Positions 3,726 to 32,062 of a stretch of DNA of 64,000 bases are shown piece after piece. The position numbers and the translations under genes are program-made. This DNA is from Bugulina stolonifera (lineage: Eukaryota > Bryozoa > Gymnolaemata > Cheilostomatida > Bugulidae). The stretch is from NCBI GenBank assembly GCA_935421135.1, contig OW285196.1, forward strand, positions 11,033,001-11,097,000, read 5' to 3'. Within the stretch, counting starts at the first letter, position 1. Each line of letters begins with the position of its first letter. Below the pieces are notes generated by a model, which saw only the letters and a list, made by a program, of their open reading frames with translations, ran no database searches and was not told where the DNA came from.

Positions 3726-5105
3726 ATGACTGGATATAGTCAACCCATACCTCTACCTTTAAGTAGCGATGTTTTACGTAAGTTTTTGAACTGTTCAATG
3801 CAGGCATACTTAGTGCTTGTTCTATTGTATATACACAAGTACAGGTAACAATTGCACATAAACTGAGTTTACTGCACATGGTAATTATTATTACTTTTTT
3901 CTGTTCCGGCATCATGACCAAACCTTTTTACATTTACAATTATAATCCTATCACAACGTTATGCTGTTTATCATAGTACAGTATAGCAACTTAAATTTGT
4001 AATGTTAAAGCTTAACATACAATGCAACATATTTATTGCAAAGAAGTTATTTGTGAGCAGTCCAGAGATTTTATTTTAAATACATGTGAAAATAATTCAT
4101 CGCTGACTTGAGGCTCTACAGCTACTAAACTCTTAGTATATGTATAACAGGCAGACCCCCATTAGTCAGACTTCTTTAGAGGGTGGCTAACCTGCCTGAC
4201 CACTATGCTCGGTGATTGGGTGCCGTAAGGTTGGTTTCAAGTGAATTAATCTAGATCCCAGTTAGAGATGGATTTTTATATACTGTGCTTGTAAACTACT
4301 CGTACATACACATAGCGTTGTACATGTATAGTATACATGCAACATTGTTTTCGTTTGTGTACATATACAATATACATGTGCGTGTAATAATAATATTTAT
4401 AGATGTGGTGTAGGCCTACACACTGCTAAAGCAAATTAATTGAAGACATATAATGCGATAGACATTATTACGCTATACATGCACATACACCATGTCAAAT
4501 TATTTTAGAGAGTGTTTGGGATGTATACCATAAGACAAATCGGCTAATAGATGGAATGTATCCAAAAAAACCACCCACCTACTGCTTAGTACATTGGCTA
4601 CCTCCACAAACAGGAAGTGCCCCCCCCAGTCTTGTTGTTTGAGAACATAAAATCCCATGCAGAGCAGAACCTGATCAATTATTTCGAGAACACACTATAT
4701 CCAGAGAGAAACACTCAGACACCATCACGGTCACTACAACCACAACCACTACAACTTGACATCTATCTTACTTTTGCACCATGTGGGAAATATACAAAGA
4801 AACGGGATAGCAACAAAAAGATGTCTGTAAAAGTAAAAGCTATGAACTGTGCTGGTAGTCTTGTTCAGTTCAGTGCTAAGGGTAATTACATACTAAACAT
4901 CAAAGCTGTGGGCTCTTATTTTGAGAATGAAGCTGAACTAAAGGCGCTGATGGCAGCTCCTAACATAACACTAAGTGCTTTTACTAAAGATGATTGGAAA
5001 ACGTTGGCTGAGCATCTTGGCAAGCAACTTGAGCCTGGTTGGGTTTACCCACCAGAATGGGAAACTCGAGATTTGGGAACAAGAATGGCATTTTTAGGCC
5101 TATAG
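3726..5105 (+). CDS. Deaminase A: AID/APOBEC-like zinc deaminase, type 1, frameshifted
   Basis: Two exons are predicted: 3726-3777 (17 codons plus one base, encoding YSQPIPLPL) and 4509-5105. The donor GTAAGT and the acceptor TTTTAG keep phase 1, exactly as in genes B and C. Exon 2 has the deaminase zinc motif: HAE (His codon at 4656), then APCG (Cys at 4782) and a second Cys at 4848. The two cysteines are 21 residues apart instead of the usual 2-4, an insertion shared in shorter form with gene C. A C-terminal W..LAEHL and W...EW.TRD follow. The frame is broken before the HAE motif at a run of eight C (4620-4627); seven C would restore it. That is either a real lesion (pseudogene) or a homopolymer error. 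Family knowledge: such enzymes deaminate cytosine in nucleic acid. The substrate here is unknown. Confidence 0.7.
4025..4290 (+). repeat. Dispersed repeat in intron 1 of deaminase A
   Basis: About 260 bases closely match 13640-13905 in the same orientation, with a shared core around GAGCAGTCCAGAGATTTTAT and a later GAGGGTGGCTAACCTGC. The end resembles the B-box-like half of other repeats here (...CCCCAATCAG). It is probably an interspersed element. Confidence 0.65.
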
Positions 5106-8100
5106 ACATGCTATAATACTATACATCCCATTGTTATTGAAAGCCACAGGACGCAGTTGCCACTTGCTACTAGCTACTAGCACATAATTCGCTTATGAAA
5201 TTAAGGTAGAATATTTCTAGAAAATTTACTTTCTCCATTTTTGCGACACATTATTATATTTTTATGATGATGAATTTGATTGTTCACTAGTATTAAACCT
5301 TTTATAATAATGAGAGTATACTGTTAACTTTTTATCACATAACTTTTACACTATATTTATATTATTATATTATATTGTTTTATGTTATACGTCTGCAGCT
5401 CAATTCTATTTTTCTTCTCAATTACTATTTTTGTTGTATTCACAATTGTTCTTTCACAATACAATGAAGGCTTAGCTAGATCTCAGTTCATAGCTTACTT
5501 GATTTAGCTGTTTAGGTGTGCAAGTGATAAAGTTAGTTATCCAAACACAGTCTTATAGAGTGTGTGGCAATTTCAATGGGTTCCCAACAAATCGAAAAGC
5601 AACGCTCACAGTTAGTGTTTGTTTCAAATTAATTTTCTTCAACTTGAAACATGTTGTGGTACAGCTTGACACATTAGACAGCAGCTTGGCAACTAAAATT
5701 CCAACATTATACCCGTCACATATAGTATTAATATTCTAAGTGACATCAAGTTATATACATATTGACCCAACTATCCAACCAATGGGGAGTAAACTATTTC
5801 ACTATTGCTGTTTCAATATGCTGTTTCAATATATTATGATGTTATTTTCAAATTGTCAATTGAGCAGTCAGGGACCCGATTTGACTTTCATGAAAATATC
5901 CATCCCTGATTGGTGTTTGAACCTGTGTAAATAATATATGCATGTAAAAGCTGTTATTTACTAAGTAATAGCAGCACCCATGAATCCTCTTTGTCTATCA
6001 AACACTTGTGCATGAACTACTATTATCTACAACTACTGTGTATCTCCCTTATTCCATCATATACATGTATAATATGTAATATTTTAGCTGCCCCACTAGA
6101 CATAATACCTTAACTGACCACCATTAACTGACTACTTTGACTGTTTCAAAAAATAAAGGACCTGATTTAGTCAGTTATTTGGCCAATAGATGAAGAAGCA
6201 TTGAGCTGCACATAATTATGCTCAGTTAATAACTACAAGGATGCATTTGTACATGTATCTGCTAGAGGTCAATGGAGGGAGACAGATTCCAAAATCCCAA
6301 TTAAGAATTTTTCAATGCAATCATTTCCTTCTACTGATCAAGTATAGCATGTTGAGTGAAGTGAATAAAGTGATGATTCTACTCATTTGAATTACATACT
6401 GGGACTTGAGTTCTGTATAGTAAGAGCAGATAACTCCAAACAGGTTTTACTAGCGTTGTTATTGACTGGTAATCTCTACTGCAGCGATTTCTCTAGGTTA
6501 TCATCTTATGAATAATGCACGAGTAAGGAAAGACAACTCATTTGGAGTGTGGTAGTTTGTTGTGAGGATAGGAAACCGTTCTTGGTTTTGAAGTTTATGG
6601 AATGTAATAATAAATTAATTGTACATTAAATTAATAATAAAATAATATTATAATTTTTATAGGTTATAAGAGAGATGGAAAATATAACAGAATTTACTGT
6701 AGCTTGGGAAATAAATGCTAATGTACCTAGCTATAAGAATGAACTTAATTTCATCTTTATATAAAATAAAGTGGGATTTATGTACGTATGTTGTATTGGC
6801 ATCAGTAAATGATTATGTGCTTTTACTGTGCTTACTTCTACTGATGCTGTTTGTTACCGCACTTATGCGTCATACTAGTTTATTCCTTTATAAACTGTCC
6901 TCTTTGATTCATATGCAACAGTGCTTTCTTATACTCCGATCCGAGACCATTTTGTCATTTGGACCCTTTTTGATCTGAGACCGACCATAATGTACTTATT
7001 GACCTTGTGACCTCGGTCTGAACTAATTTTCATACACAAGGAGCACAAGTTTGCATTCTTACTTCAGTTGCTTGTAGACTGTTGCTCAATAAAGTACCCT
7101 CACTGTTTACTGCTAACAGTAGAGTATCTCCCCTGGCTTTAGGTTTTCCCAGGTACGGTCTCATGACTGCTATCAAGACCCGGTACTCCAACCCCTTTCT
7201 ACAGCTGTAGGTACCACTCCTGCTAATCAGCCTAGCTATAGGAGCCGTGCCCACATGACCAGGTCGTTCTTGACTCCGACTTGTGCTGTGCTGTTTGATT
7301 GAACTTGCCCCCTAGCTTCGGCTTGGTCAGCCTGTTCTGACCCTCTTCATTGTTACTCTGGCCTGTATGTTGTACGGCTCTACCTCGACGTTCGCAAATT
7401 TGAACATCTGTACATCCAATAGAGCTATTGGACGGGGGGGGGGGGGGGGGGGAGGGGGAGGAGATGGTGCCTGTAAGTGAAAGGATGTTGGTACCTAAAA
7501 CAGGTGCATGTTAGAATAACGAGATTCAAGACATTATTGTCAAAGTTGTGTTAGTGTGAGCAAATTTGTTTGCGTTGATGAAAAAATATTGGAAGCTTTA
7601 CATAGCTTATGATGAAGACACTATTCCTGTTACTACTATACCATGTAAATGGTGTTATGTACATGTATGCACAATGTACAGTATATATACTAGTACACAC
7701 TGTACTATGAAGTACATGTAGTTATAAAACACATAACAGTATGAAATATAAAGGTATAGACACCTAGCATGTACTTTTGTATTACAGTAAAGTATAGACT
7801 AAATTAATTGTGAAAAATTATATATCCTGGTTTGCATAGATATAGTCATCTACACAATACTGACCAGTACTATTACTTGTATATTATGACTATTACATGG
7901 GAAATATGATCATTCCACTGTTCATCATCTACAATGTAAGTATGAGTCAGCAACTCTGTAGATATCAAAGGCATCATGGTACTATCTGGTATATACATAC
8001 ATGTAGTACTGCACGGTGTTTCGGTTTCAAACGATGTCTATGGTGTAAAACCTGCCGGTGTTTGACATCGTCATTTTTTACTTGTACCGAATCGTATCGG

Positions 8101-9900
8101 CATCGTGCTCAAACGATATACTGATGGTTTGGTGTAGTTCGATGTTATCGAACCGGATCGCTATGCCAGTAGTCATTCAATATTCATGCGGTCTAATATC
8201 ACATGGTCTTGTTTACCTCACTTCAAACTAGGTTGCATACTTTTGCGTTTCCGTTTTCACTGACTGTGCTTGACAGTGATCATGGCTGTGATTGATAGGC
8301 CGTTGTTGAAGTAATAATTGTAATAAGTTGTGTTATTTAGCAAATTGTGTATCATTCCATATCACCTGAAGTACATCATGTTATATTCTATCGTTTGTAT
8401 ATGATTGCTTTGTTCATGAACAGCGAACTAGAATAGAATAGTGGCATGAACTAACATAATTACAATTAAATTTGCACATAACATTCCATTGGATTAATTA
8501 TATTTACATGTGTATTATTATAATTAATCTACTAATGTAATGTTTAAATTTGATTGTAATCATCGCTTGTAGTTGTAGCTAAGAATAGGTACAATGCTTA
8601 CAATGATCAATTATTGCCTATATTTAATATGCGTTATATTTATATTAATTTAATTAAATATAGTGCATATTAAAATAACTCTTAATTAATCGTGAATTAT
8701 TATGGTTCTTCAATTTAAATCGTTGTGTAGTTGTGCTTTTGGTAAGCAACAGCTTTTTATTTAAAATAAGCCAATGTTCAATCAACATTTTGTAAGTAGA
8801 ATTCATTGAACTAAGCCGTCGTAATCACACTGACCAACTAGGACGCATAATGAGTCCACAGACACATTTTAGAGAAACAATTGCTAGTTGGACACATGAC
8901 GCATATTGACTCACTTTGTGGAAGCTGGACTCATTTATTTGCTACAGTGAGCTGTGCTTTTAATCCAGCCAATAAATAGCCTATTTGGCTTAGCTTAGGC
9001 CTCCAAGCATTGTCTACATTTCTAGGGCGTTGTCATCTTTCATGTCTCCAATATTTTAGTAGACTTCATTCAGCTAAATATTATATGAAAGTTGGTCTGA
9101 CAATGTAATAGAATACAATATGCATATAGAAATTCAGGATCCTTTTCATCAATCTAGTCAAATTAGGCCTGGTAGTTCAACTAGAGCTAATAATGATAAA
9201 AATACTATGATGCATCCTACTATTTAAAACATAAAATTATATGCATCTTGATACAAGAGTGCAGAAAATTTTTCACCATGTCATTTGTACAGACATTTTT
9301 CAGCAAAAATTCTGAAAAATTTTCCTTGAACATGTTGGACTCATTTTTAAATTTTTCCGACTCATTTTTACAAATCTTGGTTGGTCACCCTGGTCGTGAT
9401 ATCCAGTCAGGAGACAAATCTGGTAGATTCAATCGGTGGACACACTGAATTATCCCAATCCAGCAATCGAGAAAGCTTGCAAGAAAGATTTCCTACATTA
9501 TCATTACATCAATGCAACTATGCTAGCGTTTATTGCTTCTCTTGTGGTGATATGAAGTTAGCTCATGTAATTTACATTTATTATCTTTTTGTGTCAATGG
9601 TATGAGTGTTGGGAACAAGGTTTCTGTTTTTCTTCTGTATTTTGGTCACTATCAGTAATAAATCTAATAAATTATACCTAGTGGTTGGGTGTGTGCTCAG
9701 CCTCATGTTTTTATATTTAATATAATATTAAATATAAAATAGGTGAAGTAAGACCCAATAAAACTTTGACTCTCACTAGACTACATGGGCAAATGCAAAA
9801 TCTTGGAGTAGGAGTAAGCACTGATTACTTTTATTAACCCAGTTACCACATAAATAAAATTAGTATACATGTACTATATTTTTATGAAGCCCTGTCCGTC
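5106..9900. other. Gene-poor stretch downstream of deaminase A
   Basis: The first ~300 bases match the 3' flank of deaminase C (27850-28100), so they belong to the duplicated gene unit. Beyond that I see AT-rich sequence, a GC-richer island at 6960-7430 with a CAATAAAGT signal near 7087 that could be LTR debris, a G19 run, and an island at 8010-8165 with CGGTG/CGATG motifs. No convincing exon was found. Confidence 0.5.
7434..7452 (+). repeat. Homopolymer of 19 G
   Basis: Nineteen consecutive G, followed by A and further G runs (AGGGGGAGGAG). It could form a G-quadruplex and is prone to length error in sequencing. Confidence 0.9.
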
Positions 9901-10200
9901 AGCCATATCTGAAAATAGAATAAAATAGACAGAATGGTCGGCATGAAATTATGTTGTCAGACAATGTTGAGAAGTTTTGTTCCCTTGTATTGACCGATGG
10001 GACAACTGATAGGCAAACCAGCTCCTGAACTGGCTCGATCCGGTATTTCGAACCAAAGTTGACACCTGCTAACACCGCTTGAGACCAGGACCAAGGGATG
10101 CGGTGCGGTTCGGTATATCGATCTAAATTCAGCATCGTTTGACCCCGAAGCAGACCAGGGCCAAGGGACCTGGTGTCAACCGGTGTTTGATTAAATTCCC

Positions 10201-10261
10201 CCAGAAAACCGAATAACAGTGGGGAGGCAAGTTGCCTCCCCACTGTTATTCGGTTTTCTGG
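10201..10261. repeat. Near-perfect 61-bp palindrome
   Basis: Two 30-bp arms (10201-10230 and 10232-10261) are perfect reverse complements around a single central G. The left arm starts CCAGAAAACCGAATAACAGT. It lies in an island (9970-10260) with repeated GACCAGG.CCAAGGGA motifs that looks transposon-derived. Confidence 0.95.
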
Positions 10262-10611
10262 AGCAACACCGTGCAGCACTATATACAAGTATACATCTAC
10301 ATGTATATACTTACCCAGCAATGTTACTACAGCTTAACGATAATAGATAGTGGATACAAACCAAGAGTTATATTACAGATAATATACTAAAAAGTCATAT
10401 ACTAACAGATAATATACTTCAGGTCACCTTTATATGTTAATAGATTCTAACGCAGGAGTCAATGGCTAACTTAGGGAATTTATATGCAATATATTAGGTA
10501 AGTACTATTAATTTGGGTGTTACTTATCCGACAGAGGAGGTTGCCCTGGTTATTACAGTTCATTCTTTTATTATTTGAGGGGGAGAGAAATTTCACTAAA
10601 TGATATGGTTA

Positions 10612-11480
10612 TAGGTATGAACTGTAGAAATGTAGAAACGATTGGATTAAAGACTGAGATACTAATTAGATAGTTAAAAACTTAGGCTATAAATTTCCAG
10701 TACAAAACACATTAGCTGCTCCAGGTATGTCAATGAAAATTTTAACTACAAAGACGACTCGAGAGATCCCGATAGTTCTATTCTGCTCTTTTCTGCGATT
10801 TATTACTAATTTGCACCATATTAACATAATTATTACTTAATATTATTTATTGCTTACCATTATTTAGCATTGCAAGTATCTTCGCGGTAGGCTGAAACTG
10901 TGTGACAAAGTATATTTTACTGTTATAATACGAAATGATAATTTATTTATTATTTACTTAATATGATTTATTTATTGTCAATTTAATATCATAATATATT
11001 TATTATCGATTTATTATGATGTATGAGTACTACATGCATATATTATAGTTTCACATTTTTTATTGATTATCCTGTGATTCTGTAATTTTGGGCTATATTG
11101 TTTATCTGCGCTTTGTACTTGTAATTCACCAATAAATCAATTCCTGCAATGCACCCAATAGTGTTGCTATTTTACCTTGCTGTGAGATAGTTATTTCCCA
11201 TGCATTTTATGTTACCATTAATTTGTTTGCTATATTTGAGAGATTGTGAGACCATATAGTATGGCAAGGATGCACAGAATTCAAAATAGTGTTTTAACTT
11301 GGGCCGTTTTGCTTTGCTAACAATTGTGACAGTCTCTTCCTGTCTTGAACGTAGTAAAGTTATACATTATTAATACATGTCATATTACAATCAGATGATT
11401 TTTATCAGAGCCTGGATGAATGTTAGCAGAGTCTCTACAGAATCTGTCTGCAGGAAAACGTCACAAATGCGGATATTGGG
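10612..11480 (+). other. Orphan 3' flank of a lost type 2 deaminase gene
   Basis: The sequence from 10612 follows the 3' untranslated and flanking sequence of deaminase B (from 19202) for ~770 bases, including the polyadenylation-signal area (AATAAATCAATTCC near 11130). It then continues in the homologue of 21060-21180. The match starts at about the position just after gene B's stop codon, yet no deaminase exon lies upstream. I read it as the remnant of a duplicated gene unit whose coding part was deleted. Confidence 0.6.
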
Positions 11481-11639
11481 GTGGGTAAAGTTTGTTGATA
11501 TAGAAATTTCCAGCATGCATTAGCATTAGCATGCATGCATTAGGATCTCACTCGTCCACAAGAGAGTTCAATGTCAGTTGCATGCAATGGGACATACTGT
11601 AATGATCTGAGCACACTAAGAGGTGTGTCGAAGGGAAGA

Positions 11640-12175
11640 GAGTGGTCTAATTGTCTCTAACTCCTGCCAGTAGCTATACTTGTAATATAACAGAACAGAG
11701 TGAATGCAACTTCCGGTGTATATAATAGATGATAGTATAGAGAGAGTATAACTCCTGTTAGTAGCTATACATGCAATATAACAGTACAGAGTGAATACAA
11801 CTCGTTCCAGTAGATATAATATGATAGTATAGAGATAGTATAACTCCTGCCAGTAGCTATAGATGTAATATAACAGTACAGAGTGAATGCAACTCCTTCC
11901 AGTAGATATAATATGATAGTATAGAGAGAGTATAACTCTTTCCAGTAGATATAATATGTTAGTATAGAGAGAACATAACTCCTGTCAATAGATATAATGT
12001 CATACTACAGAGAGAACTTAGTACATTGTAACTCCTTTCAGTAGGTAATATTATAGTGCAGAGAGAACATAACTTCTGTCAGTAGATATAATATGACAAT
12101 ACAGAGAGAAGATAGCTCCTTCCAGGCGGTATTAAAATGATGGTATAGAGAGAACAAAACTCCTGACAGCTAATG
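11640..12175 (+). repeat. Degenerate tandem array, AACTCC/TATAGAGAG family
   Basis: About eight to nine diverged units of ~55-65 bases, each with AACTCCTGYCAGTAGATATA and then ATGATAGTATAGAGAGA. Related units occur at 21190-21280, and on the opposite strand at 53440-53600 and 58190-58780. Confidence 0.8.
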
Positions 12176-13639
12176 TGCTTGCAGATAACTTGCGTCATTG
12201 CTGCAAGATCAGAGTGACTAGTGCTAGACCACTTGGCCACAAACAGTGCTGTGGATACATTTACATGTACATGTATACTAGTAGTTTAACAGTTGCTCTT
12301 TAGACTCTTCACCAACTGCTCCTATTCGGCTGATGAACCTGATACCTAGGCTAAGTTATACCTACATGCACATGTATGTAGATTGCTGCTATCAGAAGAT
12401 ATAAACTGCTATTTATATATTTACTATTCAGTTATGTGTATCTACTACTAATACACTGATACATACGACGTACACCCCAAATGTCTGTATTTATATACAT
12501 ATTAGATGTACTTGGTGTAAGTGTACGTATATATGTGTGTGTGTGCATAATTAGAAATTTGATGATGTCATTACTATAATAATGCTATGCATCTCATAGA
12601 TTTAGGAGGGTTGAGAGTTTATTTGATTGTGTGTTGTGTGGCTGTCACTGTTCATTAAATAATGTGTCTATTCCTCGTTGTGGGTGGATATGGTGGTGTG
12701 TCATTACCAAAGGGCGCAGGACCGTTCCAGTAAATTAATTTGATACATCTATTCTAATTGTACCATATTTTGGTGTGTTCCTTGGTATAAGCAGTCGGTT
12801 ATTTGCAGCATTGAGTAGATAGTGCTTTGTCTCATGTGGCTATCTAGCTGTAATGTGTGTTCATTTTCAAACACTTGTTGCAACCAGCCCAGCCCGGAGT
12901 AAAACAAGGAAAAATTTTATTTAAGCTCGTCTCGACCAAGTGGTATTTTTTTCCACGATTCGGGTGGGGAGGGGGCACTTGCTACGTAAGTGCTGCTGCA
13001 TCCATATGGCGCAGTTTCACTTTTCGAATTTTTGAGAAGCACTGTTTTGAATCTCGTCTCGAATTCGAAAATGCTGTTTTCTTCCACCTCTAACAAATAT
13101 GCAAAGAACTGTTATCATATGATAATAATGGAAGTGTCTATTTTTGTCAACCTAGGCTTATGTAATATTATTGTTTGCTGATATCGGAGTGAATTCTTTG
13201 AATATATAACCTTTATTTGTTTTCTCTAATCTGTATTTTTAGGCTCATGTTCACCTTAGTGTTAACGTGAGGCTTATATTTTTACAAAATATAATATCAT
13301 CTATACTATTCAGTAAAAGGAAGAGACTGTGAAACTATACAATTACTGTAAATATTAGTCTAGCCTGTGTCAGATTATCAGCATTAAAACTCTGTAATCA
13401 GTTACCTCCCCCCATTGTAAGTATGAAGGATAAGATATCCCCTGGTACAAGATAAGATAATAGTGTACATGTATGTTATACAGATTTGTATTACAATAGT
13501 GGGGAGTGAGTGTTTTTCATTAGACACCCTGTATCAAACCTCATAAAATACATAATACTAATTAGCCTCTCATATTCTATTTAAAGTATATTCTCAGTAT
13601 AATTGGAACAATACAGCGACCCATATTGCAACGTAGTGA
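12176..13639. other. No gene seen; repeat debris
   Basis: 12260-12360 matches 21775-21870, continuing the duplication that starts at 10612/19202. 12880-13090 holds an island with CGTCTCGA motifs resembling the element at 17438-18104. No supported exon. Confidence 0.5.
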
Positions 13640-13905
13640 AATTATATGCAACATATTTATTCCAAAGAACTTATTTGTGAGCAGTCCAGAGATTTTATTT
13701 TAAATCTGTGAAAACAATTCATCACTGGCTTGAGACTCTACAGCTACTAAACACCTCGTACATGCATAACAGACACACCCCCATTAGTCAGGCTTCTTTA
13801 GAGGGTGGCTAACCTGCTTGACCACTATGCTCGGTGATTTGGTGCCACAAGGTTCAGTTTCATGGGATTTCATCTAAACCCCAATCAGGAATGGACTATT
13901 ATAAT
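13640..13905 (+). repeat. Dispersed repeat, copy of 4025-4290
   Basis: Direct copy of the ~260-bp repeat found in intron 1 of deaminase A, diverged by scattered substitutions. Confidence 0.65.
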
Positions 13906-14870: not shown

Positions 14871-14876
14871 TCTATG

Positions 14877-16139: not shown

Positions 16140-16282
16140 AACTGGCATCAGTTAACCTTATCTGATCACCACTGAGCAGACCTACACATAGTGATATAGC
16201 ATACACATTACTCTATACTGTGTAGTTTCATCAGCAGCAGGAATTGGTATTAGACACATTTGTCACGTTAATACAACCTCAC
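16140..16282 (+). promoter_or_regulatory. Putative upstream region of deaminase gene B
   Basis: Paralogous to 3541-3725 before deaminase A, with the same CTATACTGTGTAGTTT and ATCAGCAGCAGG blocks. Conservation next to exon 1 suggests shared transcriptional control, inferred from duplication only. Confidence 0.4.
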
Positions 16283-19201
16283 ATGATGGCTGGATATAGT
16301 CAACCCATACCTCTACCTTTAAGTAGCGATGTTTTACGTAAGTTTTTGAACTGTTCAATTCAGTCATGCAAGTACCTAGTGCTTGGTTTATGTTATACAA
16401 ACAAGTGCAGGTAACAATTGCACATTGCACTGAGTTTGCTACCCATGATAATAATAACTTTTCTGTCCCTGCGCTGTGACAAAACTTTTTTACACAGTGC
16501 ATATTACAATTATACCCCTATCACAACATTAAATGATTTATTATATCATTAGTGGAGATCCTGATGACCCAGATAGACTCGATAAGTATTCAAATAACAA
16601 TTATAATATAGTACTATAAAACCCAGTGTCTTACTAACAACCTAAAAAGCAAAACACTACATACAGTGTATATTATAATTACACTTATTACATAAAAACA
16701 TTGTATTAAAACTTGAAACATTCAACTGGATGGAATAGCAGAGATCAGATTTTTAGTGAATAAAACAATATTTACATGTATATGTTAAGTGTAGTCCATT
16801 GACTATATTATACGTTAATAAAAATAGCTCTAAAAGAAGCACTTTATTTATCTGCTTCCTATTATTTCATAACAGTGCTGTTATTGTTACCCTGTAGCCA
16901 GCCTAACTATCTGCTAGCATAAATAATTTCATGTTCCACTTCAGATGTAGATTCAAGTACATATCGGAAAAATGGTACTGACCAAGATTTCAAAAGCTAA
17001 AGGACAATATATTATTTTCTTCTTTCTGGCTGCTCAGAATAATTTCCGTGCTAGAAAACTATTACATTATAATAAGTAGGATCAAAACCCTTTTAGCACC
17101 TTCACCTTTTATATAACCAGGTTCAGCCTGGGTACGCCTTGGTTTCGCTTTTCCTCACAAAGTTGAGAGCATACAATATTATAACAATATTTTCTGCCTG
17201 CACCTTGTACCCACTTCATTTGTTCCACTTCGAACACTGGTTGAGAGTAATAGTAGTTACCTTATCAAACGCTCCCTCCTCGTTCTGTGTACATGGCCAA
17301 GCCATCTGAGACCTATCTCTGCAGTAATATCAGCCATTGGAGAATTTCTTCGTTGGTGACTTTAATATATTTCCATGTGAGAGTTTGGATTAATTTTATA
17401 GCATGATACGACACAGTCAAATATACGTATATATCCCGTATAGGTGGAACGAGACAGAATTTTTGAATTCAAGACGAAATTTGAGACGCTGCTTCATAAA
17501 AATTCAAGACGAGACCGGGTTTTAGGATTTAAGTGATTTTTTCTAAACATTTTGCAAAATTTTATATTGGCATGTTGGAATTCCAACTGTTTCGACCCCT
17601 ACTCTGTATATTCTTTATAATTCATGCATGCTTTATATCAGTAGGCATTTCAATAAAGGATGAACAGAAGACTAGGGGAATGCAATGCACATGTGTACAA
17701 GTACTTGGTATAACTGACAACTAGTAGGGAGTTACGTTTCCATCACTGAAATAATTTAATGAGCAGACAACTTTTAGTATGGATCACATTGCATTATGGG
17801 AGAGTCAACAGTTAATTGGAATGCAGTTAGTCGCCTTGCATGTAGTGATGGATGAGTAGCCCAGTGCTAACTGCAATTACTAGAAAATCAGTGCTGGGAA
17901 TGTAGGTAGTATATGATTAAGTAACTTAATAAATAATTTTCTTATATTATGGATTATTTCCTGCTTAGCAATGGATTATATAATAGTTATTAATAAAAAT
18001 TATTATGTGCTATTGATTTTCCAGTCTAGAACACTAATTGCCATCTCGAGACGACTTTCGAGACAAGTCAATTCAAGACGAGTCTCGTTCTACCTCTGAT
18101 ACCCTATAGTATAATATACGATACAGTACAATATACTATATACATGTACATGTAGTACAATATACTATATACATGTACATGTAGTACAGTATACTATATA
18201 CATGCACATGTAGTACAATATACTATATTATACAATATGTAGTACAATATACTATATACATGTACATGTAGTACAATATACTATATCATACAATATGTAG
18301 TACAATATACTATATACATGTACATGTAGTACAGTATACTATATACATGCACATGTAGTACAATATACTATATTATACAATATGTAGTACAATATACTAT
18401 ATTATACAATATGTAGTACAATATACTATATACATGTACATGTAGTACAATATACTATATCATACAATATGTAGTACAGTATACTATCATGTACATGTAG
18501 TACAATATACTTGTACACAACGTATGATACGGCGAGGTAAATGAAGTACATAGTGCAAATGCTAGAATTGCATGCAATATGTAGGCCCATTATAATGTTA
18601 TATAAACAGCGAATAATAAAAAAATCATTCACATAGCCTGAGATACAGGACAATAGTCTTGGAATCCCTTACCATTTAATAGTATGACTTACAGAACTAC
18701 ACCTGCACTACTTATAGATCTGATGCTAATGTTTCAGAGTCAGTGAAGCTTCACTACATGGATCTGAAAATTCCAGGAACTTGGTGGCCAAATTATACAT
18801 GCTGCTTGGCAAAGGTTGGGACAGATGAATGGTTTTTCAAGAACACAAGAGGTGGGCAGGCACACGCCGAACAGAACATGATGAACCATCTACAGGATCT
18901 TAAGAACACTCAGCTGGACTTGTACCAGAGTTATGCCCCATGTGATGACTGCACAAAAGAGCTGGTTGAATTTTGTAGAGCTAGAAATATTGATGTTACC
19001 ATTAGATTTGTGCATATTTATAGAGATAATTACGCTTTTTTTCAAACTGATGATATTGAGTGGAGACAATTTGATCGGGAATCTTGGGAAAAATTGGGTT
19101 TTGCTTTGGAACAAGAAAAAACTTGGGGAGATGAGTATTATTCTAGAGTAGACAGGGATAACCTAGTCCAAAAATACATTCAGGATCATTTGAATAACTA
19201 A
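16283..19201 (+). CDS. Deaminase B: AID/APOBEC-like zinc deaminase, type 2
   Basis: Predicted exons are 16283-16337 (18 codons plus one base; two ATGs in tandem) and 18738-19201, joined by GTAAGT...TTTCAG in phase 1, giving 172 residues. Zinc site: H61-A-E63, then P86-C87-x2-C90, with 22 residues between the Glu and the Pro. This matches the AID/APOBEC pattern of HxE...PCx2-4C, with Glu63 the expected proton shuttle. The context LDLYQSYAPCDDCTKELVEF resembles the core strand and helix of that family. A later SWE.LG and W...Y..RVDRD match the other paralogues. No signal peptide is seen, so it should act inside the cell. The intron is long (2.4 kb), carries a TIR element and a minisatellite, and holds a decayed alternative exon end at 16553-16583. 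A polyadenylation signal lies at 19791. The exon 1 assignment rests on phase and paralogy. Confidence 0.75.
17438..18104. mobile_element. Putative MITE-like element with terminal inverted repeats
   Basis: The left end (GTATAGGTGGAACGAGAC, 17438) and the right end (GTCTCGTTCTACCTCTGATA, 18084) are inverted copies with a small gap, and both are followed inward by AATTCAAGACGA-type sequence. There is no transposase frame inside. Target duplications are unclear. It lies in intron 1 of deaminase B. Confidence 0.5.
18110..18500. repeat. AT-rich minisatellite
   Basis: Tandem, partly higher-order array of GTACAATATACTATATACAT and ACATGTACATGTA modules (~39 bases) in intron 1 of deaminase B. Confidence 0.85.
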
Positions 19202-22108: not shown

Positions 22109-22714
22109 TGTAATGGTTTTTGGTATTTCGTGCGGTCGTCCTTGGACGACTACAGACCCAAAACTGAAGTGCCTATGAGTGGTGCTAGGCCTTCTCATTA
22201 CATGAAAGATTGAGCGGTCTCAGTAGTCCAAGTACTACCAGAGACGACCCATCTGGTCCCAAGTCTGACCTTCAGACTATACTTTGAAAGAGAGTGATCC
22301 GACCTAGTAGGTGGTTCGCTAATGCGAATGACCTGACAAAAGGAAGTGAAAGTCTCTGTATCAAGTATAGATGTGTCTTTATTGAAAGCCAAGCAAAGAC
22401 TGAGACAACAAACGATGAAACAGTGTCCTTTATATAGTATAAGAACTTCCGCCCGACGGCCGACCCAAAATAGGTCGGGTTATACAAAAGTTGCTTATAA
22501 TCATCCAATTCATGTACAAAATGAATATCAAGTGATTCTGAGAGGTCGCGCCTCTTTACATGGGTATAAAAGACACTAAAAGACTTAGTAATTATCAGAC
22601 AGCTATGTACAATGGCATATAGTTAAGCAATACAGAATGCAAGCAGGTATATACATGTAAGCACACATAATAATGAGTGTCAGGTGATAAGAGACGACTG
22701 TGCGTACCATTACA
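22109..22714 (-). mobile_element. Solo LTR, copy 1
   Basis: 606 bp bounded by TGTAATGG and CCATTACA, the TG...CA inverted ends typical of LTRs. On the minus strand there is a TATATAAAG box (22428-22436) and, ~45 bases further, AATAAA (22378-22383), the promoter and polyadenylation order expected of an LTR read on that strand. A second copy lies at 30528-31192. No gag or pol is next to it, so it is a solo LTR. Flanks ATAC and ATAA are an imperfect 4-bp target duplication. Confidence 0.75.
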
Positions 22715-24460
22715 ATAATTTTACAGTTTACACACCAATCTTTAAAAATTCAAAAATTTTTCTGTGCATGTTGCAAGTTTGTATGTCTGGCAACCCAAGA
22801 AAAAACAAATTCTATTCGCTAACTACCTATAAACTAGTAAATTGAGCAAAACCATTTGAGACTTTGTTTTGGAGTGGACATGTAACAGAGTGGACAAACA
22901 ATGACTATACACCAAATTTTTTCATTTTGACTGGACGTGAAAAGTAAGTAAAGTTACCATGATGTAAGCCCTCTGTTGAAAAGGAGTATGGATCAAAATC
23001 AAAGTTGTACGAAATCTATATTTTCGGCAAAATGATGTCACAGAGTTAAAAAACAAACAAGGCGCATTCACTTTTTGTTGAATTATCTAAAGATCATAGC
23101 CGACAACTGAAATTTTCTTTGATAATTTGGTGCAGGCAAAGATAATAGACGAATGTAACTGAAAAAGTAAACAGAGGTTGGCTTTAAACGCTCTATTCAT
23201 ACCATTTAGTTGTTACGGAGTTGACAACCAAAAATCTGTGACAGCACTTTGAACAAAGATAGTTTTGAACTGTCTACATGTATTCATGTTTACACTTAGT
23301 TCATTTCTCTAGGAGCAGAAAGAGTGGCTGTATAACCAGTATAACATAATGAGTGCAGCCAAAGCAGCCCAATCTAGGCTGCAAGTTCAGTACTCAGTTA
23401 TTGTGACGTTGAATTTTGAGCAATTTTCACCTTAAATCAACCTATCAATTAACTTTAAATGGATTATGAAGCTCTAACAAAGGCTAACACTAGTTGCCCT
23501 TGTCTATTTATACATTGTCTAAAGGTAACAACAATATTCAGGTATCATCAACCCATAACAGGGGAAATATTTCACTGTGGCAGAATTTTACGCATAATCT
23601 GAGAATCACCCAGTCTACGCATACTACCGCTGCCGTTATACCATTTTAATTGAAGTCGAAGAGCTCAGAACTAGCCGGCTATACTACATAGTCTGTGGTA
23701 GTAGTACTTTTTCGGTAGGTCCTGCTGTGAGCACTTTGATCGGATATGTCAGTAAACTGTGTGTCATAGATTTTGTTTCTGTGTTCTAAGATGTAGCGGA
23801 GTAGACTCTATTTTGTGACCTACAACGAGAATAGTACATATACTTGTAGTTTGGCATACATTATTGCTTCTTAGAGTAGTTACTTGGTAGCCTACAACTA
23901 TCTATGTTCCACTCACTATTGTATTTTAGTTTATTCTTGGTGTATTTATTTCAATGTTTTATTGCTTTGTTTTATTTTGCTTTCTGTTTGGTAGTTGTTT
24001 TTGTTCATTTTCTCATTTTCCGATAGCTTATATACACTGTAACATGTACACTTCGATATGCCCATATTATTATCTCCTCTTGTCACTGTGTAATTATATT
24101 TACATTGTATGTTGAATCTATTACTGCTATTCCTTGAACTGTTCTTTCTCTCTCAATGCTACACTCTCAGTCTATACTCTACTATCTCCTAGTCCACTAT
24201 CTGTACTGTCTCTTATTTGCAGCGTTACCAATCATATTACATGTACTCAGTATTACAGTGTTAGTGAAGCTGGTTAGGTGTTATGTCCTATCTACTACTA
24301 TTGTATAAGAGTAGCCAACTCCTACATACTAATCTGCTCAAATTTGTATGCAGCATGGATAGTCGACCTTGTAGGTGACACCAGTTGATATTACTTGGTC
24401 GGTATACAATATGACCTACACCTAGTATGATACACAGTACTCGATAACCTGTCTTTTTAG
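22715..24460. other. No gene seen
   Basis: Moderately AT-rich sequence without a recognisable exon, array or RNA gene. If deaminase C has further 5' exons they would lie here, but none could be recognised. Confidence 0.45.
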
Positions 24461-24540
24461 CAGCTGCAACTGATGAGCTTGAGACCAAGGAAGAAGACAA
24501 TTTTCTTTTACGTTTCAAAAAATCCCATGCAGCCAAATTA

Positions 24541-27500
24541 ATGCTTCCAAACCAACAAAATTATCATAACCCCATACGTCTACCTTTAGATGACGATACT
24601 GAAGACCCAGATAATTTAAGTAAGTATTCAAATAATAATCATAATGAAAAATGTTAGTGTTAGCTAGTAGTTTTATTATAAATAGCAATACAAAACGTAT
24701 TTTATTTTTGATTTTTTTCATAATAATTCAACACTCATCCTAGCATCATCATCAGAGGATAGATGAAGTTATGGAAATTAAGGGCTATTTTATATAATGG
24801 GTAATTACATCAAAGAGGAAAAGCTAAGGGAATGGATTAAGTTAAGAATAAAGCTCCGAAACTATTTACACAATAGAGTTACTAGATTTCCATAACTTCA
24901 TTTATCCTCTGATGATGATGCTCAGATGAGCATTGAAATATTAGGAAATAAATCAAAAATAAAAATGCCTCTTGCATTACTATTTATAATAATTGTAATA
25001 TGTTATACATGCTAACTTTCACTTGCAGCTAAAAAAGTAATAGGCATACACTGCACGCACTATTTATTACAATGTCAACTAATATCACATGTAAAAGTAT
25101 AGAAAAAAACATTTTTTCATCCCTTATGTAGCGAGGTAGCCATAGAGATGTGTCTCGTGGCAGTTAGTTTAGTACTAAACAGGCGCCACTCATTCGCTAA
25201 ATCTGCTAGAGATAAAACGAAACACAGTATCTATTTTCTCTGTATTACAATGTAATATACATGTATGTGACCCTCGCTAACAGAATCAGACTGTTGAAAG
25301 GACCAGAATCAGACATTCGAAAGGCTAGAAAAACTCCATAAGATTGAACTTTGACTAGCTACATTTATACTCAGAGATCATTCATGACTTACATAATGAT
25401 GTTTGTACAAGTATAACTCATAATTTATTATATCATGTTTATTATAGGCTATATATTCCAATTAGAATAAAACAGTCTTTGCTGCAATTTTATGGACCGC
25501 CTGATATTTGATTCCTTAAAACAACATATCATATTGCTTTTATTGTACATGAGGCAAAACATGGGCTGGTATGCTGTGCGTATTGAACTAGAGCCTATAT
25601 TGCACTTAACATACAGAAATAACATTTGCAAATATATGCATACCACATACATGTACATGTAGCTCTCATGTAACTTACAATACAATGTACGTGATGGTAC
25701 AATATAAATGTATGACACAGTGCAATATGATACAGTACTATATATTATAATACAATACAATATACGATACAGTACAATATACGATACAGTACAATATACG
25801 ATACAGTACAATATACGATACAATACAATATACGATATAGTACAATATATGATACAGTACAACATATGATACAGTACAATATTGTATGATACAATACAAT
25901 ATATGATACAGTACAATATATGATACAGTACAATATATTATGATACAGTACAATATTGTATGATACAGTACAATATATGATACAGTACAATATTGTATGA
26001 TACAGTACAATATATGATACAGTACAATATATGATACAATACAATATACGATACAGTACAATATACGATACAGTACCATATACGATACAGTACAATATAT
26101 GATACAGTACAATATATGATACAGTACAATATTGTATGATACAGTACAATATATGATACAGTACAATATATGATACAATACAATATACGATACAGTACAA
26201 TATACGATACAGTACAATATATGATACAGTACAATATTGTATGATACAGTACAATATATGATACAGTACAATATATGATACAGTACAATATATGATACAA
26301 TACAATATATGATACAGTACAATATACGATGCAGTACAATATATGATACAATACAATATATGATACAGTACAATATATGATACAATACAATATATGATAC
26401 AGTACAATATATGATACAGTACAATATATGATACAGTACAATATTGTATGATACAGTACAATATATGATACAGTACAATATATGATACAGTACAATATAT
26501 GATACAATACAATATATGATACAGTACAATATACGATGCAGTACAATATACGATATAGTACAATATATGATACAGTATAATATATGATACAGTACAATAT
26601 ATGATACAATACAATATATGATACAGTACAATATATGATACAGTACAATATATGATACAATGCAATATATGATACAGTACAAACAGAGCTGCACAGTGTC
26701 GTCTCCTCACTCACATTTGATTTTTCACCTCTGTGTAATCAAACAGCAGTCGACACCGACCTTATGGCCAGGAGTCGGTTCAGTGTCGAACGGAGTCATC
26801 TATGGTGTGATACACTGGAAAACTGTTTTTCTGAACAGTTGTTCCCTCTTTATATGGAAAGAAAGAATATAACTGCCACTTATGCATGTACATGTATATA
26901 CATGTATGTTGTATTACTTTAGAAAAGGCTTTGGAGGTATACTATAAGGCAAATCGGACAATAGATAGAAAGTATTCATCAGGCACACCCGTCTACTGCT
27001 TAGTACACTGGGAAGATCCTGACAAAAATCCACCCTCCAAGGAGTTGTTGTTTAAGGGCAAAGACTCACATGCAGAGCAGAACTTTATCAACTATTTCAA
27101 GAGTGAACTATATCCACAGAGAGACGCTAAAACACAACCACCACTACAACTCAACATCTATCTTACATTAGCGCCATGTGGAGAACCAAGAGGTGACACA
27201 AAAGAAGACAAACTACCACCTATGGACTGTGCAGGTAGTCTTAAAGATTTCAGTAAAGAGGGTAATTATGAATTAAACATCAAAGCTGTGGGTCCTTATC
27301 GTAAAAATGAAGATGAACTACGTGCGCTGATGACAACTTCTGGCATAGAACTAAGTGCCTTTGCTAAAGATGATTGGGGAAGGCTAGCTGAACATCTTGG
27401 CACGAAAGATGACTACAAAAAACTAGCTAAACTTAGCATGGAAGATGATTTCAGAAGGCTAGCTGAACATCTTAGCACGCAGTCTGATTGGGATTATCCA

Positions 27501-27590
27501 CAGGAGTGGAGAACTCGAGATCAAGAGACACAAGAAACATTTGACAGAATTAGGAACCAAGTCCAGCAGTCTCCGGCAACTGCTAAATAA
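24541..27590 (+). CDS. Deaminase C: AID/APOBEC-like zinc deaminase, type 1
   Basis: Predicted exons 24541-24619 (26 codons plus one base, with NPIRLPL matching PIPLPL of genes A and B) and 26923-27590, joined by GTAAGT...CTTTAG in phase 1; 248 residues. Zinc site: H76-A-E78, C112 (in APCG) and C129, so 16 residues separate the cysteines instead of 2-4. It is collinear with gene A, through YCLVHW, HAEQN.INYF, NIKAVG.Y and LSAF.KDDW. The C-terminus repeats a DD...LA.HL unit three times (27369-27482), where gene A has it once, and ends in DYPQEWRTRD plus a tail not present in A. The frame stays open upstream of the chosen ATG to an acceptor-like TTTTTAG at ~24460, so the N-terminus may be longer. 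Intron 1 holds a foldback element and a 1-kb satellite. AATAAA at 28212 may end the transcript. Confidence 0.8.
24645..25025. mobile_element. Foldback (hairpin) element in intron 1 of deaminase C
   Basis: The inner arms 24742-24778 and 24886-24922 are inverted copies (37 bp, about one mismatch; CATCATCATCAGAGGATAGA start). Outside them an imperfect inverted match continues to ~24645 and ~25025 (AATCAAAAATAAAA, CTATTTATAATAA). The central spacer is ~107 bp and has no frame. It looks like a MITE or foldback element; the class is uncertain. Confidence 0.65.
25690..26690. repeat. 1-kb satellite, 17-bp unit
   Basis: Tandem array of GTACAATATATGATACA variants (unit 17 bp; some units with CG for TG, some with an added TGT), roughly 55-60 copies. 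Long minus-strand frames through it are repeat artefacts. It fills much of intron 1 of deaminase C. Confidence 0.95.
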
Positions 27591-27677
27591 CCTACCTACA
27601 TGTATGATTAAGATATTATATTTCTGGAAATATTTTCCTCTCTAAATTATTTCCTCTAATATGATGATGAACTGTTA

Positions 27678-27865
27678 GTAATAATGAGTGCACAGTATGA
27701 TCGGAGAAGGTTGACTGAGCATTTGCATGTAAGTGGTCAACCTTCTTTTGCAAGTACATGTACATGTACATGTACATGTACTTGGATTTATCCACAAGAG
27801 TGGAGTGATACATGTAGAGGTGTTGCAACAGGAATAAGCTTTTTAAGCCTGTAATAATGTGCGTT
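27678..27865 (+). pseudogene. Decayed second copy of the deaminase C-terminal end
   Basis: Downstream of gene C's stop the sequence again resembles the type 1 C-terminus. AGGTTGACTGAGCATTTG matches the LAEHL-coding segment, and GGATTTATCCACAAGAGTGG matches the W-Y-P-x-E-W segment. It ends in TTTTTAAGCCTGTAAT, against TTTTTAGGCCTATAG at the end of gene A. A run of TGTACA repeats interrupts it. From here the 3' flank of gene A is collinear, so this is probably the ancestral end of the gene, displaced by duplication of the C-terminal segment. Confidence 0.55.
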
Positions 27866-28714
27866 TTCATTATTATTTGAAACCATAAGGCACGGCTACC
27901 ACTTGACATACATTCTCCTATATAATCATATGTTGTACATTTCTTGAAATCTTTTTTCCAAATTATTTAACTATTATATTTTTTATGAGGATGGATTTGA
28001 TTGTCCATTAGTATTACACTTTTTACAATGGAGATTGTATATTATTATTTTTTATTAGATTCTTTGTATACTACATGTATATCTATATCATAATTCATAA
28101 TTATATTGAATTTATAATTTATACTTAAATTGTTATATTTATATAATGCTTCTGTAGGTAAATTTTTTGTCTCTTCTTTCCAATTATTATTTATACTATA
28201 TAACTATTCAGTAATAAACTTCCCAATGTTATTTCATAACACCCTTAATGCTTAACATACAATGTATATGTAGAGAACATGGTAATTTCGATGCCCTAAA
28301 ATCTAAGAACAATACTCCATATCTAGTGCTTGTTCCAAATTTCTCAAGTTTAAAACTTACTGTAGCATGGACTATAGTTTGTCTCACAGTAAGACTGCTT
28401 AAATGGCAGCTTGACAGCAAAAAATATAATATTGTGTCGTCGCTTTGATGAATAGTGCCCAGTAGCTATATTATCTATCTACTGTTCAATAACCAATGGT
28501 TCAGTTATTATGTAACTATATGCAGAGCACATAACATACATCATACTCGCACTCGCACTCAATGTGGAACTGTTTAGATGTACATTGTATATGAAGAAAG
28601 CTACATTCTTTACCATGTTAGCATGAATCCATTGCCTACCAGGGCAATAAACACTTGTACAAATGTACATGTATATAATAAATTCCATTTATCTCCACCT
28701 ATCTACTGTGTTTC

Positions 28715-28815
28715 ATCCCCATATGCTATCTTCTTATCTTACTCTATGTGTGATCAATATCTTCTGATCAACCAGCATCTAATAGGAATATCCATTTACT
28801 GGCCTACAGTCATAA
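28715..28815 (+). repeat. Dispersed repeat, copy of 155-255
   Basis: Same-orientation partner of the repeat near the left end of the window, sharing CTAATAGGAATATCCATTTA and the following TGGCCTACAGTCATA. Confidence 0.6.
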
Positions 28816-28840
28816 ACTTGCCAATTTTGCTTATCAATTT

Positions 28841-28961
28841 TACTTCCCACTATTAATCCCAGGTAAGAAAGCAAGGATCTAAAGATATCTACATCTTTTC
28901 TAATTTGGGGTGGGGAAGGCACTTCACCAATGGCAAAGTTTATATGAGGCACAGGAGCAGT
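28841..28961 (-). mobile_element. SINE tail fragment
   Basis: On the minus strand this matches the tail of the tRNA-derived SINE at 35777-35970: GCCATTGG.GAAGTGCCTTC, then CACCCCAAA and GGGAAGTAAAAT, with ~45 extra bases inserted. The tRNA-like head is absent. Confidence 0.55.
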
Positions 28962-28986
28962 TGTGACATATACATAATATAAATCG

Positions 28987-30527
28987 TAGCAATATTTTCG
29001 ACCCCAAATCTGGTTGGAGGATGGCAAACCGTTAACCGTAGACCGTTTACCGTAGACTGTTATATGAACAACAATATTTATCTTTGTATGCGATATAGCT
29101 TTATGGGACCCTTCTTTCCTACAAAGTGCCGAGTGAACTGAATGGGCTTAATACCAGTTTCTAAGCTTATATTACATGTATGTCTACATATTGTGGTGAA
29201 ACAGCCTCAGTGGTAATGGCACCTAGGCCAGCCACACTGACAGTACTATTAACTGACATTTAATTACATTATCTTATCCATGCATTGTTATCCATATTCA
29301 TCTATGCATTCATTATTATCTTATATATACTGCGTGTCTTATATACATATGTACTAGCAATCAAGCCTTGGGATTACGTTCTATTGCAACTTGGTTTTTC
29401 CCACATTTATAGACTTATTTAGTAATTGTCTGTTATTACTTGATTGTGCATTATTAGAGTCTTTTTGCCATTTTATATAGTAACTTCATGGCTGACCTTA
29501 TAGATTTAGCTCATAATTATATACGACATGTTTCTCCTTATTGTAAGCACATTTTGTGCGAAGGCCGACCCTTTATGTGGCCAAGTCGGGCGGAACCAGA
29601 CATATATTGTTGCGTCAGTTCCGGAGCCGACCCCATGTCGGATAACCGACACCATGTCGGGCTCTTTTGGCCGGAAGTTTGTTATGTATACATGTATAAG
29701 GCAGTGCATTTTGTGTTGTGAATCAGTTGTTGATTGCGCTTGAATAAAGCAACATCTCCTAACTCAACCTACAGAGGCTTACTCTTTAGGCGGGTAACTC
29801 CACCTGAGAATCCTTTGGATTCAGTACGGCTCGAGTTCACCTCATCCTAGGCTAAGCATATCTCTATCCACCCTTTAGGCTTAGGCCGATCCCGAGTTCT
29901 AACGAACCTAGGGTCGGACTTAGGTTCTCAAGGTTAGACATTCTTTCTCTACACTCCCTCGGAGTATAAACTCTACATGACCTACATCGGTCCTGAGCTC
30001 CAATGAGTCTCGGCATCGGCTTACTTCTGATATAATCTACAATCTACACTATAAAGAGCACCCATAACTGTTCACTCTTTTATGTAATGAGCAGAAGGTA
30101 CACTTGGTCGGCCTCTACCACCTTCCAAGCCCTTCACATACTGGTAGCCCTTGGCTCTCACATGCAATAGTACTCAAAAACATTACAATATTACATGTAT
30201 GTCTATATAGTATGTTTAACATAATATTGAACTCTCATTATACCCGCAGGCAGCAGCTTTATAAAATGCTATGCTAATCCCAACAACCAATATAACAAAG
30301 TGGAAAGCAAACTTCATTATTTTTTGCAAACAAAATACCTTTTAATTACACATAGGCCTCCAGAACAAACATGTCACTGCATGTACAAGTAGATACAGCA
30401 TTCAAGTTTTAAGACATAGTAACTATTATGCATTTAGCATCAAGCTGACCCAGGCTTTTCCATGTAATGTCCATCTTCTATGCTATACAAATAAAGTGCA
30501 ATGTAATATAATAATAACAAATAATAT
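28987..30527 (-). repeat. Arm of a large inverted duplication (partner 1471-2003)
   Basis: 28987-29190 and 30188-30527 are the reverse complement of 2003-1790 and 1811-1471 respectively. The arm is interrupted by the insertion at 29191-30187 and ends exactly where the solo LTR at 30528 begins. Confidence 0.75.
29191..30187. mobile_element. 997-bp insertion flanked by 22-bp direct repeats
   Basis: The uninterrupted partner at 1790-1811 shows a single copy of the 22-base sequence found on both sides here (29169-29190 and 30188-30209, one mismatch). The insert starts TTGTGGTGAAACAG and ends ACATTACA, and has a TTTATATAG box near 29472, AATAAA at 29743-29748 and repeated ATGTCGG motifs. The ends look LTR-like, but a 22-bp target duplication does not. 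No long conserved frame. Class unresolved. Confidence 0.6.
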
Positions 30528-31192
30528 TGTAATGGTTTCTGTGATTTGGTGCGGTCGTCCTTGGACGACTATCGACCCAGAAATGAAGTGCCTATGAGTG
30601 GTGCTAGGACTTCGCATTACATGAAAGATCGAGCGGTCTCAGTAGCCCAATAACTACCAGAGACGACCCATCTGGTCCCAAGTCTGACCTTCAGACTATA
30701 CGTTGAAAGAGAGTGATCCGACCTAGTAGGCGGTTCGCTAAGCGAATGACCTGACAAAAGGAAGTGAAAGTCTCTGTATCAAGTATAGATGTGTCTTTAT
30801 TGAAAGCCAAGTGAAGACTGAGACAATGAACAGTAAAACAATGCCCTTTATATAGTATAAGGACTTCCGGCCGACGTAGTGTCGGGAAAAGACGACGCGT
30901 GGTCGTCCGGAAGTTGCGCAACAAGATGGCCGCCGGAAGCCCGACGGCCGACCCAAAATAGGTCGGGTTCTACAAAAGTTGCTTATAATGGTCCAATTCA
31001 TGTACAAAATAAATATCAATGGATTCTGAGAGGTCGGGCCTCTGTACATGGGTATAAAAGGCATTAAAAGACTTAGTAATAATCATGTAACCATATACAA
31101 TAGTATAGGAGTAAAGTACAAGCAGATATATACAATTATGTGCACACAAGAATGAGTGTCAGATGTAAGATACGATTTAGCGTACCATTACA
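30528..31192 (-). mobile_element. Solo LTR, copy 2, at the 5' edge of deaminase D
   Basis: 665 bp with the same TGTAATGG...CCATTACA ends and minus-strand TATATAAAG (30846-30854) and AATAAA (30796-30801) as copy 1. It is flanked by a perfect 4-bp duplication, ATAT. It has ~80 extra bases rich in CG (near 30875-30955) that copy 1 lacks. It separates the inverted-duplication arm from sequence that matches deaminase A only from the exon 1 donor onward. Confidence 0.8.
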
Positions 31193-31423
31193 ATATTTTA
31201 AGTAAGTAAAAGTTTTTTAACTGTTTAATGCAGGCATACTTAGTGCTTGTTCTATTGTATATACACAAGTACAGGTAACAATTGCACATAAACTGAGTTT
31301 ACTGCACATGGTAATTATTATTACTTTTTTCTGTTCCGGCATCATGACCAAACCTTTTTACATTATTTACAATTATAATCCTACCACAACGTTATTATAA
31401 TTTATTATGTCATAAGTCTTATA

Positions 31424-32062
31424 ATGCAAAAAGCAAAACTGATGCTGTTTTACATAAACTGCCGTGACATTGACACCTTTCTTATAGGAGATGTGAAGCA
31501 TCATTATATGGATATGTTTGTAAATGGACAGGTTTGGGCAGAGTTTAAAGATGCGTACTGTTTGGTGAGAGGGCAAGGAGTAGGAGGGGTAGCAGTAGGC
31601 CCCCTTCTCTTCAAGAACACAGGCTCGGGAGGAAATCACGCTGAAGTAAACATGATGGAATATCTGACAAACAACCCCTCACCTCTAGCTGGAGCTACCA
31701 CATTGGAGTTGTACCAGAATTACGCCCCTTGTGACAGTTGTACTCCCAAAATAGAAGATTTTTCTGAGGATAGAGGTGTGAAAATAAAGGTCACATTTGT
31801 GAATCTTTTTGGAGATAAAAAGATAGGAGATCATGCTGAATCTGTAAGATCGGGGAGTATCCCTATAAGACAGTTTAATTCACAGTCTTGGAATAGTTTG
31901 GGTAACATGCTGGGGGATGATGATAATTGGGGTAGTAACTACACAGAGAAAATGAAGAATCGAGATGAGAGAGTGAGGGCTAAGGTTGAGAATATTGATG
32001 GAGTTGATGGCTACGTAATGTATAAATTTTATCCAAAACCAAAACCAGAACCTGCACAGTAG
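31424..32062 (+). CDS. Deaminase D: AID/APOBEC-like zinc deaminase, type 2, first exon lost
   Basis: By paralogy with gene B the conserved coding part starts after the acceptor CTTATAG at 31487 (exon 31488-32062, ~190 codons, phase 1). Zinc site: HAE (His codon at 31637) and PCDSC (Cys codons 31730 and 31739), spacing as in AID/APOBEC proteins. Type 2 hallmarks are VK.HYMD, LELYQNYAPC, SWNSLG and W...Y...M..RDERV. The usual first exon is missing: sequence matching the intron of gene A starts at a donor (GTAAGT, 31202) directly after a solo LTR. The gene may therefore use the in-frame ATG at 31424, which adds a short hydrophobic N-terminus, use an ATG inside the exon, use an unseen exon, or be silent. 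The deaminase frame itself is intact. AATAAA lies at 32491. Confidence 0.7.
   Translation: MQKAKLMLFYINCRDIDTFLIGDVKHHYMDMFVNGQVWAEFKDAYCLVRGQGVGGVAVGPLLFKNTGSGGNHAEVNMMEYLTNNPSPLAGATTLELYQNYAPCDSCTPKIEDFSEDRGVKIKVTFVNLFGDKKIGDHAESVRSGSIPIRQFNSQSWNSLGNMLGDDDNWGSNYTEKMKNRDERVRAKVENIDGVDGYVMYKFYPKPKPEPAQ

Follow-up and report, generated by a model that had tools for sequence, protein, structure and literature searches.

A tandem cluster of AID/APOBEC-like deaminase genes in the bryozoan Bugulina stolonifera

A 64-kb stretch of Bugulina stolonifera DNA (bases 11033001-11097000 of the 16.1 Mb contig OW285196.1, here contig C10; the whole stretch is called the window) carries four genes, A, B, C and D, all on the + strand between positions 3726 and 32062, and raises the question of whether they encode AID/APOBEC-like enzymes that are still at work and, if so, on what they act. 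All four open frames contain an HAE and a PC...C motif, as a first-pass annotation of the window had described. We consider it probable that the four genes stand in tandem and encode AID/APOBEC-like cytidine deaminases that act on polynucleotides, with B and C looking intact, A frame-broken and D without its first exon, and that the putative role of the cluster is the restriction of viruses or retroelements.

Family and predicted fold

Comparison with Pfam profiles gave SNAD4 as the top-scoring and NAD1 as the second model (PF18750 and PF18778, both AID/APOBEC-like clades; cut-off 27 bits each) for B, C and D as well as for a paralogue on contig C5 (10606368-10606877). B reached 36.3 bits with SNAD4, 33.8 with NAD1 and 33 with APOBEC_N (cut-off 25), D passed SNAD4 with 30.3 bits, C lay at the cut-off, and the C5 paralogue exceeded the cut-offs of SNAD4 (31.8 bits), NAD1 and APOBEC4. 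The APOBEC4 model (cut-off 27.2) was passed by B with 28.5 and by the C5 paralogue with 28.6 bits; both, however, score higher with SNAD4, and C (11.9) and A (12.1) stay far below. None of the NCBIfam profiles came close to its cut-off with B, C, D or the C5 protein, and a PADLOC search with B and C gave no matches.

The predicted structures of B and C are in accordance with this assignment: the nearest structures are AID/APOBEC proteins (Foldseek E-values of 2.8e-8 for B and 3.5e-6 for C), and both models show, at moderate confidence, the five-strand core that had been proposed as a check of the family, in which a helix separates strands 4 and 5. The match to the family is not due to chance, given these values and Pfam E-values down to 6.7e-9 for the cluster proteins. 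AID/APOBEC structures were also the best matches to the Protein Data Bank by profile, and APOBEC3H, other vertebrate APOBEC3 proteins, AID, APOBEC1 and APOBEC2 share the predicted fold and the zinc motif with the bryozoan proteins. They differ from them in sequence (11-24% identity over the structural alignments of the B and C models), in the 16-21 residues that separate the zinc cysteines of A and C, and in that here a single exon would encode the catalytic domain. Primate APOBEC3 genes likewise stand in a tandem array.

SNAD4 is named for secreted proteins, whereas the modelled N-termini of B and C have no hydrophobic signal-like stretch: the highest hydropathy over 11 residues, by a simple scan and not a dedicated predictor, was 0.93 in B and -0.22 in C, as compared to 2.95 in a signal-like relative on contig C7. 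The predicted N-termini, MAGYSQPIPLPLSSDVL for B and MLPNQQNYHNPIRLPLDDD for C, are similar around PI-x-LPL. Since no obvious signal peptide is seen in them, B and C would act inside the cell.

Searches of the genome (234.95 Mb in 27 contigs) with the proteins of B, C, D and the C5 paralogue and with SNAD4, NAD1 and APOBEC_N, whose counts are lower bounds, yielded among the matches listed the C5 paralogue, the gene on C7, an ADAT2-like gene on C2 and a scrap of 38 residues on C8 (NAD1 17.9 bits). The product of the C7 gene (1784846-1785559, minus strand), 238 residues long, has a hydrophobic N-terminus and the motif PC-x2-C, lacks HxE at the expected place and scores 23.8 bits with NAD1, under the cut-off; it may be an inactive secreted AID/APOBEC relative. 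In 14 control genomes weak matches were found in eight for SNAD4 and in one each for NAD1 and APOBEC_N, none of them over the cut-off. Among prokaryote genome contigs, 12 stretches matched the pattern of close relatives of B and none was confirmed; in viral contigs the same holds for 26 stretches obtained with an alignment of five sequences as query.

Krishnan and colleagues and Liu and colleagues, both in PNAS in 2018, reportedly described invertebrate AID/APOBEC-like genes with lineage-specific expansions. The names of the NAD and SNAD models agree with those reports, and the cluster probably belongs to a kind that other invertebrates are already known to have.

Two protein types and a shared first exon

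In a tree of the five exon-2 proteins, A grouped with C in 96% and B with D in 100% of 200 bootstraps, with the C5 paralogue between the pairs, so that the alternating order type 1, type 2, type 1, type 2 noted in the first-pass annotation is borne out. The types differ at the zinc site. The spacing usual in AID/APOBEC proteins is about PC-x2 to x6-C; B (HAE-x22-PC-x2-C), D (HAE-x27-PC-x2-C) and the C5 paralogue (HTE-x30-PC-x6-C) lie inside this range, C (HAE-x32-PC-x16-C) and A (HAE-x38-PC-x21-C) outside it. The PC-x6-C of the C5 protein recalls APOBEC4. Read from the sequences, type 1 is thus marked by additional residues inserted between its zinc cysteines. That the long spacing stems from an overlooked intron was rejected by eye: the sole GT...AG stretch of nearly 60 bases in A would delete the first cysteine, and those of C are all shorter.

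In each protein, one zinc ion would be held by the histidine of HxE and the two cysteines, and the glutamate of HxE would deaminate cytosine in single-stranded DNA or RNA. The catalytic motifs, the predicted fold and the average constraint described below point to B and C being active polynucleotide cytidine deaminases. ADAR-type deaminases also have cysteines that are far apart, so activity of type 1 is still plausible by analogy in spite of the long insert. A further-reaching proposal is that type 1 is a distinct active AID/APOBEC branch tolerating a long, variable inter-cysteine insert and that, in addition, the cluster diversifies by passing a cassette of upstream DNA and first exon between two unlike types, which would put new catalytic bodies under one control and one N-terminus; in this combined form we regard it as doubtful. 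The insert poses a concrete structural question, and it and the shared cassette are the points most worth following.

The evidence for such a cassette comes from the 5' parts of the genes. A 3598-3961, comprising upstream DNA, exon 1 and the start of the intron, is 80% identical to B 16155-16531, and 51 of the 52 bases of exon 1 are the same, yet the exon-2 proteins of A and B are only 30% identical. Moreover, the flank of D (31210-31395), the orphan flank of the first-pass annotation, is 97% identical to the start of the intron of A (3780-3962) as against 74% to that of B, the other type-2 gene. The exon-1 flank was rejected as a dispersed transposon: a genome search with it, in which very common words were skipped, gave only three matches among those listed, all within the cluster. 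The shared module is most simply explained by copying between loci.

The divergence estimates do not agree with the earlier suggestion that one ancestral pair was duplicated. Between A and C, over 148 codons, synonymous divergence (dS) was 0.48 (bootstrap 0.32-0.76), whereas between B and D, over 153 codons, it was saturated, with a bootstrap lower bound of 1.32 and another estimate of 2.29. A single duplication of the pair would make the two values alike and is therefore unsupported, as it is by the exon-1 module common to both types; the alternation would instead have a past that is longer or more mixed, except if conversion homogenised the type-1 genes. The ratio of nonsynonymous to synonymous divergence (dN/dS) for A and C was 0.60 (0.36-0.98), or 0.63 and 0.74 by two other methods, which in these sequences is constraint on average and not positive selection; for B and D the ratio is unreliable because dS is saturated. 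Change in the cluster would have involved tandem duplication, copying of the upstream-plus-exon-1 module between types, and decay.

Decay, repeats and the role of the cluster

The frameshift, exon loss and C-terminal repeats that had been read as birth and death in a tandem cluster were found again: the frame of A, as modelled and read, is lost at a run of eight C, comparison and splice modelling beside D revealed no first exon like those of A, B or C upstream, and the repeats lie in C. In addition, the DNA behind C resembles the 3' end of a second type-1 gene, with local matches to A 4990-5015 (85%) and A 5252-5374 (76%).

Beside D lies a long terminal repeat (LTR)-like element of 665 bp, which looks young and numerous: at least 44 matches were found in the genome, scoring having covered the best 40 of the 2826 first-look candidates. 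Of these matches, 40 are 96-100% identical to the copy in the window, a further one reaches 95%, and three fragments lie at 75-90%. A 4-bp target duplication was present in all 15 copies in which both ends were located; the ends were not located in the copy L058. Insertion of this element as the direct cause of the loss of exon 1 of D was rejected. The element is flanked by an undisturbed 4-bp target duplication, beyond which lies a separate repeat (30188-30528; 88% identical to 1463-1815, inverted), so exon 1 was apparently lost separately. A repeat with reverse transcriptase gave seven matches, query included.

The restriction of viruses or retroelements is put forward as the role of the cluster on account of its family and the turnover of the locus; the AID/APOBEC enzymes of vertebrates introduce mutations into the DNA of viruses and antibodies. 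The innate mutators of invertebrates would show what roles the family had before antibodies and APOBEC3, and two protein types with a common first exon and visible decay offer a good natural system for studying the turnover of such an array.

Several observations weigh against functional deaminases with this role. SNAD4 scores are only slightly above the cut-off (27.1-36.3 bits), with C at it (27.1 bits for 26919-27587 and 26.8 for its whole open frame), and A is under every Pfam cut-off (best APOBEC_N, 17.9, and SNAD4, 16.7). The structure models of B and C were each built on four sequences only, and the remaining four models of B are far worse, with predicted local distance difference test values of 49.5-55.0. 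Exon 1 and the splicing of A, B and C are known as models, from DNA alone. Two of the four genes look damaged, and the array as a whole may be in the course of being lost. Furthermore, no clear strand-biased excess of G-to-A or C-to-T was seen, by raw counts, among 16 sequences of the 665-bp repeat (30 of the 44 matches were fetched; 15 + strand copies and the divergent L058, near a fetched one, were used). The most lopsided copies were L060, with 6.5 C-to-T as compared to 1.7 T-to-C per comparison, and L065, with 6.6 G-to-A as compared to 3.5 A-to-G; L058 diverges in all substitution classes. The result concerns one family and leaves room for action on other elements or viruses.

These points lend some weight to the view that the genes are AID/APOBEC-like by descent and now mostly functionless, the intact frames being recent survivors, in accordance with the breakage of A, the missing first exon of D, the relic-like 3' end behind C, an interval crowded with repeats and an upper bound for the A-C dN/dS of 0.98. 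That the joined frames of B and C are uninterrupted and keep every catalytic motif, that D is open for 190 codons with all of its motifs, and that the interval of the A-C ratio lies below 1 makes this unlikely; the break in A could, moreover, be an assembly error in the run of C. Quite unlikely, too, is a role in RNA editing or development instead of defence: the AID/APOBEC family includes RNA editors and the one repeat family compared carries no clear hypermutation, but it is defence genes that more commonly turn over fast. Finally, it is highly improbable that enzymes of another zinc deaminase class (free cytidine or dCMP (deoxycytidine monophosphate) deaminases, tRNA adenosine deaminases) were mistaken for AID/APOBEC proteins, a placement that the first-pass annotation had named as the outcome counting against it and that did not occur, for although HxE and PC..C are common to all and weak matches exist (B, dCMP_cyt_deam_1 21.6 against 25 and the cytidine deaminase model TIGR01355 18.2 against 275; D, dCMP_cyt_deam_1 15.3), the AID/APOBEC profiles outscore these, with B well above the cut-off, the models match AID/APOBEC structures first and have the helix between strands 4 and 5, and the ADAT2-like gene of this genome, named by eye, lies apart on C2, where its weak SNAD4 match (22.1 against 27) does not make it a relative of the cluster. 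Active AID/APOBEC-like deaminases with a probable defence role thus remain the preferred explanation.

Gene models and genomic setting

The features of the cluster are compiled in Table 1. In the splice models of A, B and C, the junction between exons 1 and 2 is in phase 1 and the donors read GTAAG, which agrees with the two-exon plan given in the first-pass annotation; the introns measure 731, 2400 and 2303 bases. No stop arises in B or C when the exons are joined, and exon 2 of each gene encodes the whole catalytic domain. The frame of C exon 1 stays open upstream (24450-24540) to an acceptor-like AG, so the modelled exon may have a longer N-terminus or be an internal exon. For D, translation could alternatively start from an in-frame ATG at 31424.

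Table 1. Coordinates of the cluster genes and associated elements in the window.
Feature	Position	Strand	Remarks
A exon 1	3726..3777	+	17 codons + 1 base, phase 1, GTAAGT donor; splice model
A exon 2, type 1	4509..5105	+	frame broken at eight-C run 4620-4627; HAE and PC-x21-C downstream of break
A open frame	4590..5105	+	
B exon 1	16286..16337	+	splice model; near-identical to A exon 1 (see text)
B exon 2, type 2	18738..19201	+	HAE and PCDDC; Pfam matches over cut-off; APOBEC-like model
B open frame	18683..19201	+	
C exon 1	24541..24619	+	26 codons + 1 base, phase 1; splice model
C exon 2, type 1	26923..27590	+	HAE and PC-x16-C; C-terminal repeats 27366-27479; APOBEC-like model
C open frame	26835..27590	+	
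Relic-like second type-1 3' end behind C	27697..28092	+	resembles C-terminal coding sequence as far as about 27856, 3' flank thereafter
LTR-like repeat beside D	30528..31192	.	665 bp, TG...CA ends, 4-bp ATAT target duplication
Orphan flank	31210..31395	+	copy of A intron-1 start, no exon 1
D exon 2, type 2	31488..32062	+	HAE and PCDSC; phase-1 acceptor at 31488
D open frame	31379..32062	+	

Within intron 1 of B, 51 bp (16557-16607) are 80% identical to the end of exon 1 and donor region of C (24595-24645), with the donor GT lost, a possible exon relic judging from the alignment.

Downstream of the cluster, kinesin exons were found at 38781, with KIF4 as the best match in the Protein Data Bank, and at 42300; together with the introns they are consistent with an animal chromosome. 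A nearly perfect 33-bp tandem array (42681-43412; 22 copies, 99% match) adjoins a kinesin exon. An Rfam search of the whole window gave no matches. Elsewhere in the assembly, contig C27 carries a mitochondrial COX1 gene with 11 TGA codons read as tryptophan and eight AGR codons, several of these at serine positions (NNM-S-FWLL, VE-S-GAGT), and with ATA consistent with methionine; given the residues that we take to be expected at these positions, the pattern is presumably that of the invertebrate mitochondrial code as used by protostomes, which would agree with a protostome source if C27 comes from the same animal. Further COX1 frames with internal TGA lie at C12:7199-8926 and C26:34375-36051, of which the latter, the one that was read, presumably resembles a ciliate mitochondrial gene and suggests that DNA of a symbiont or contaminant is present in the assembly.

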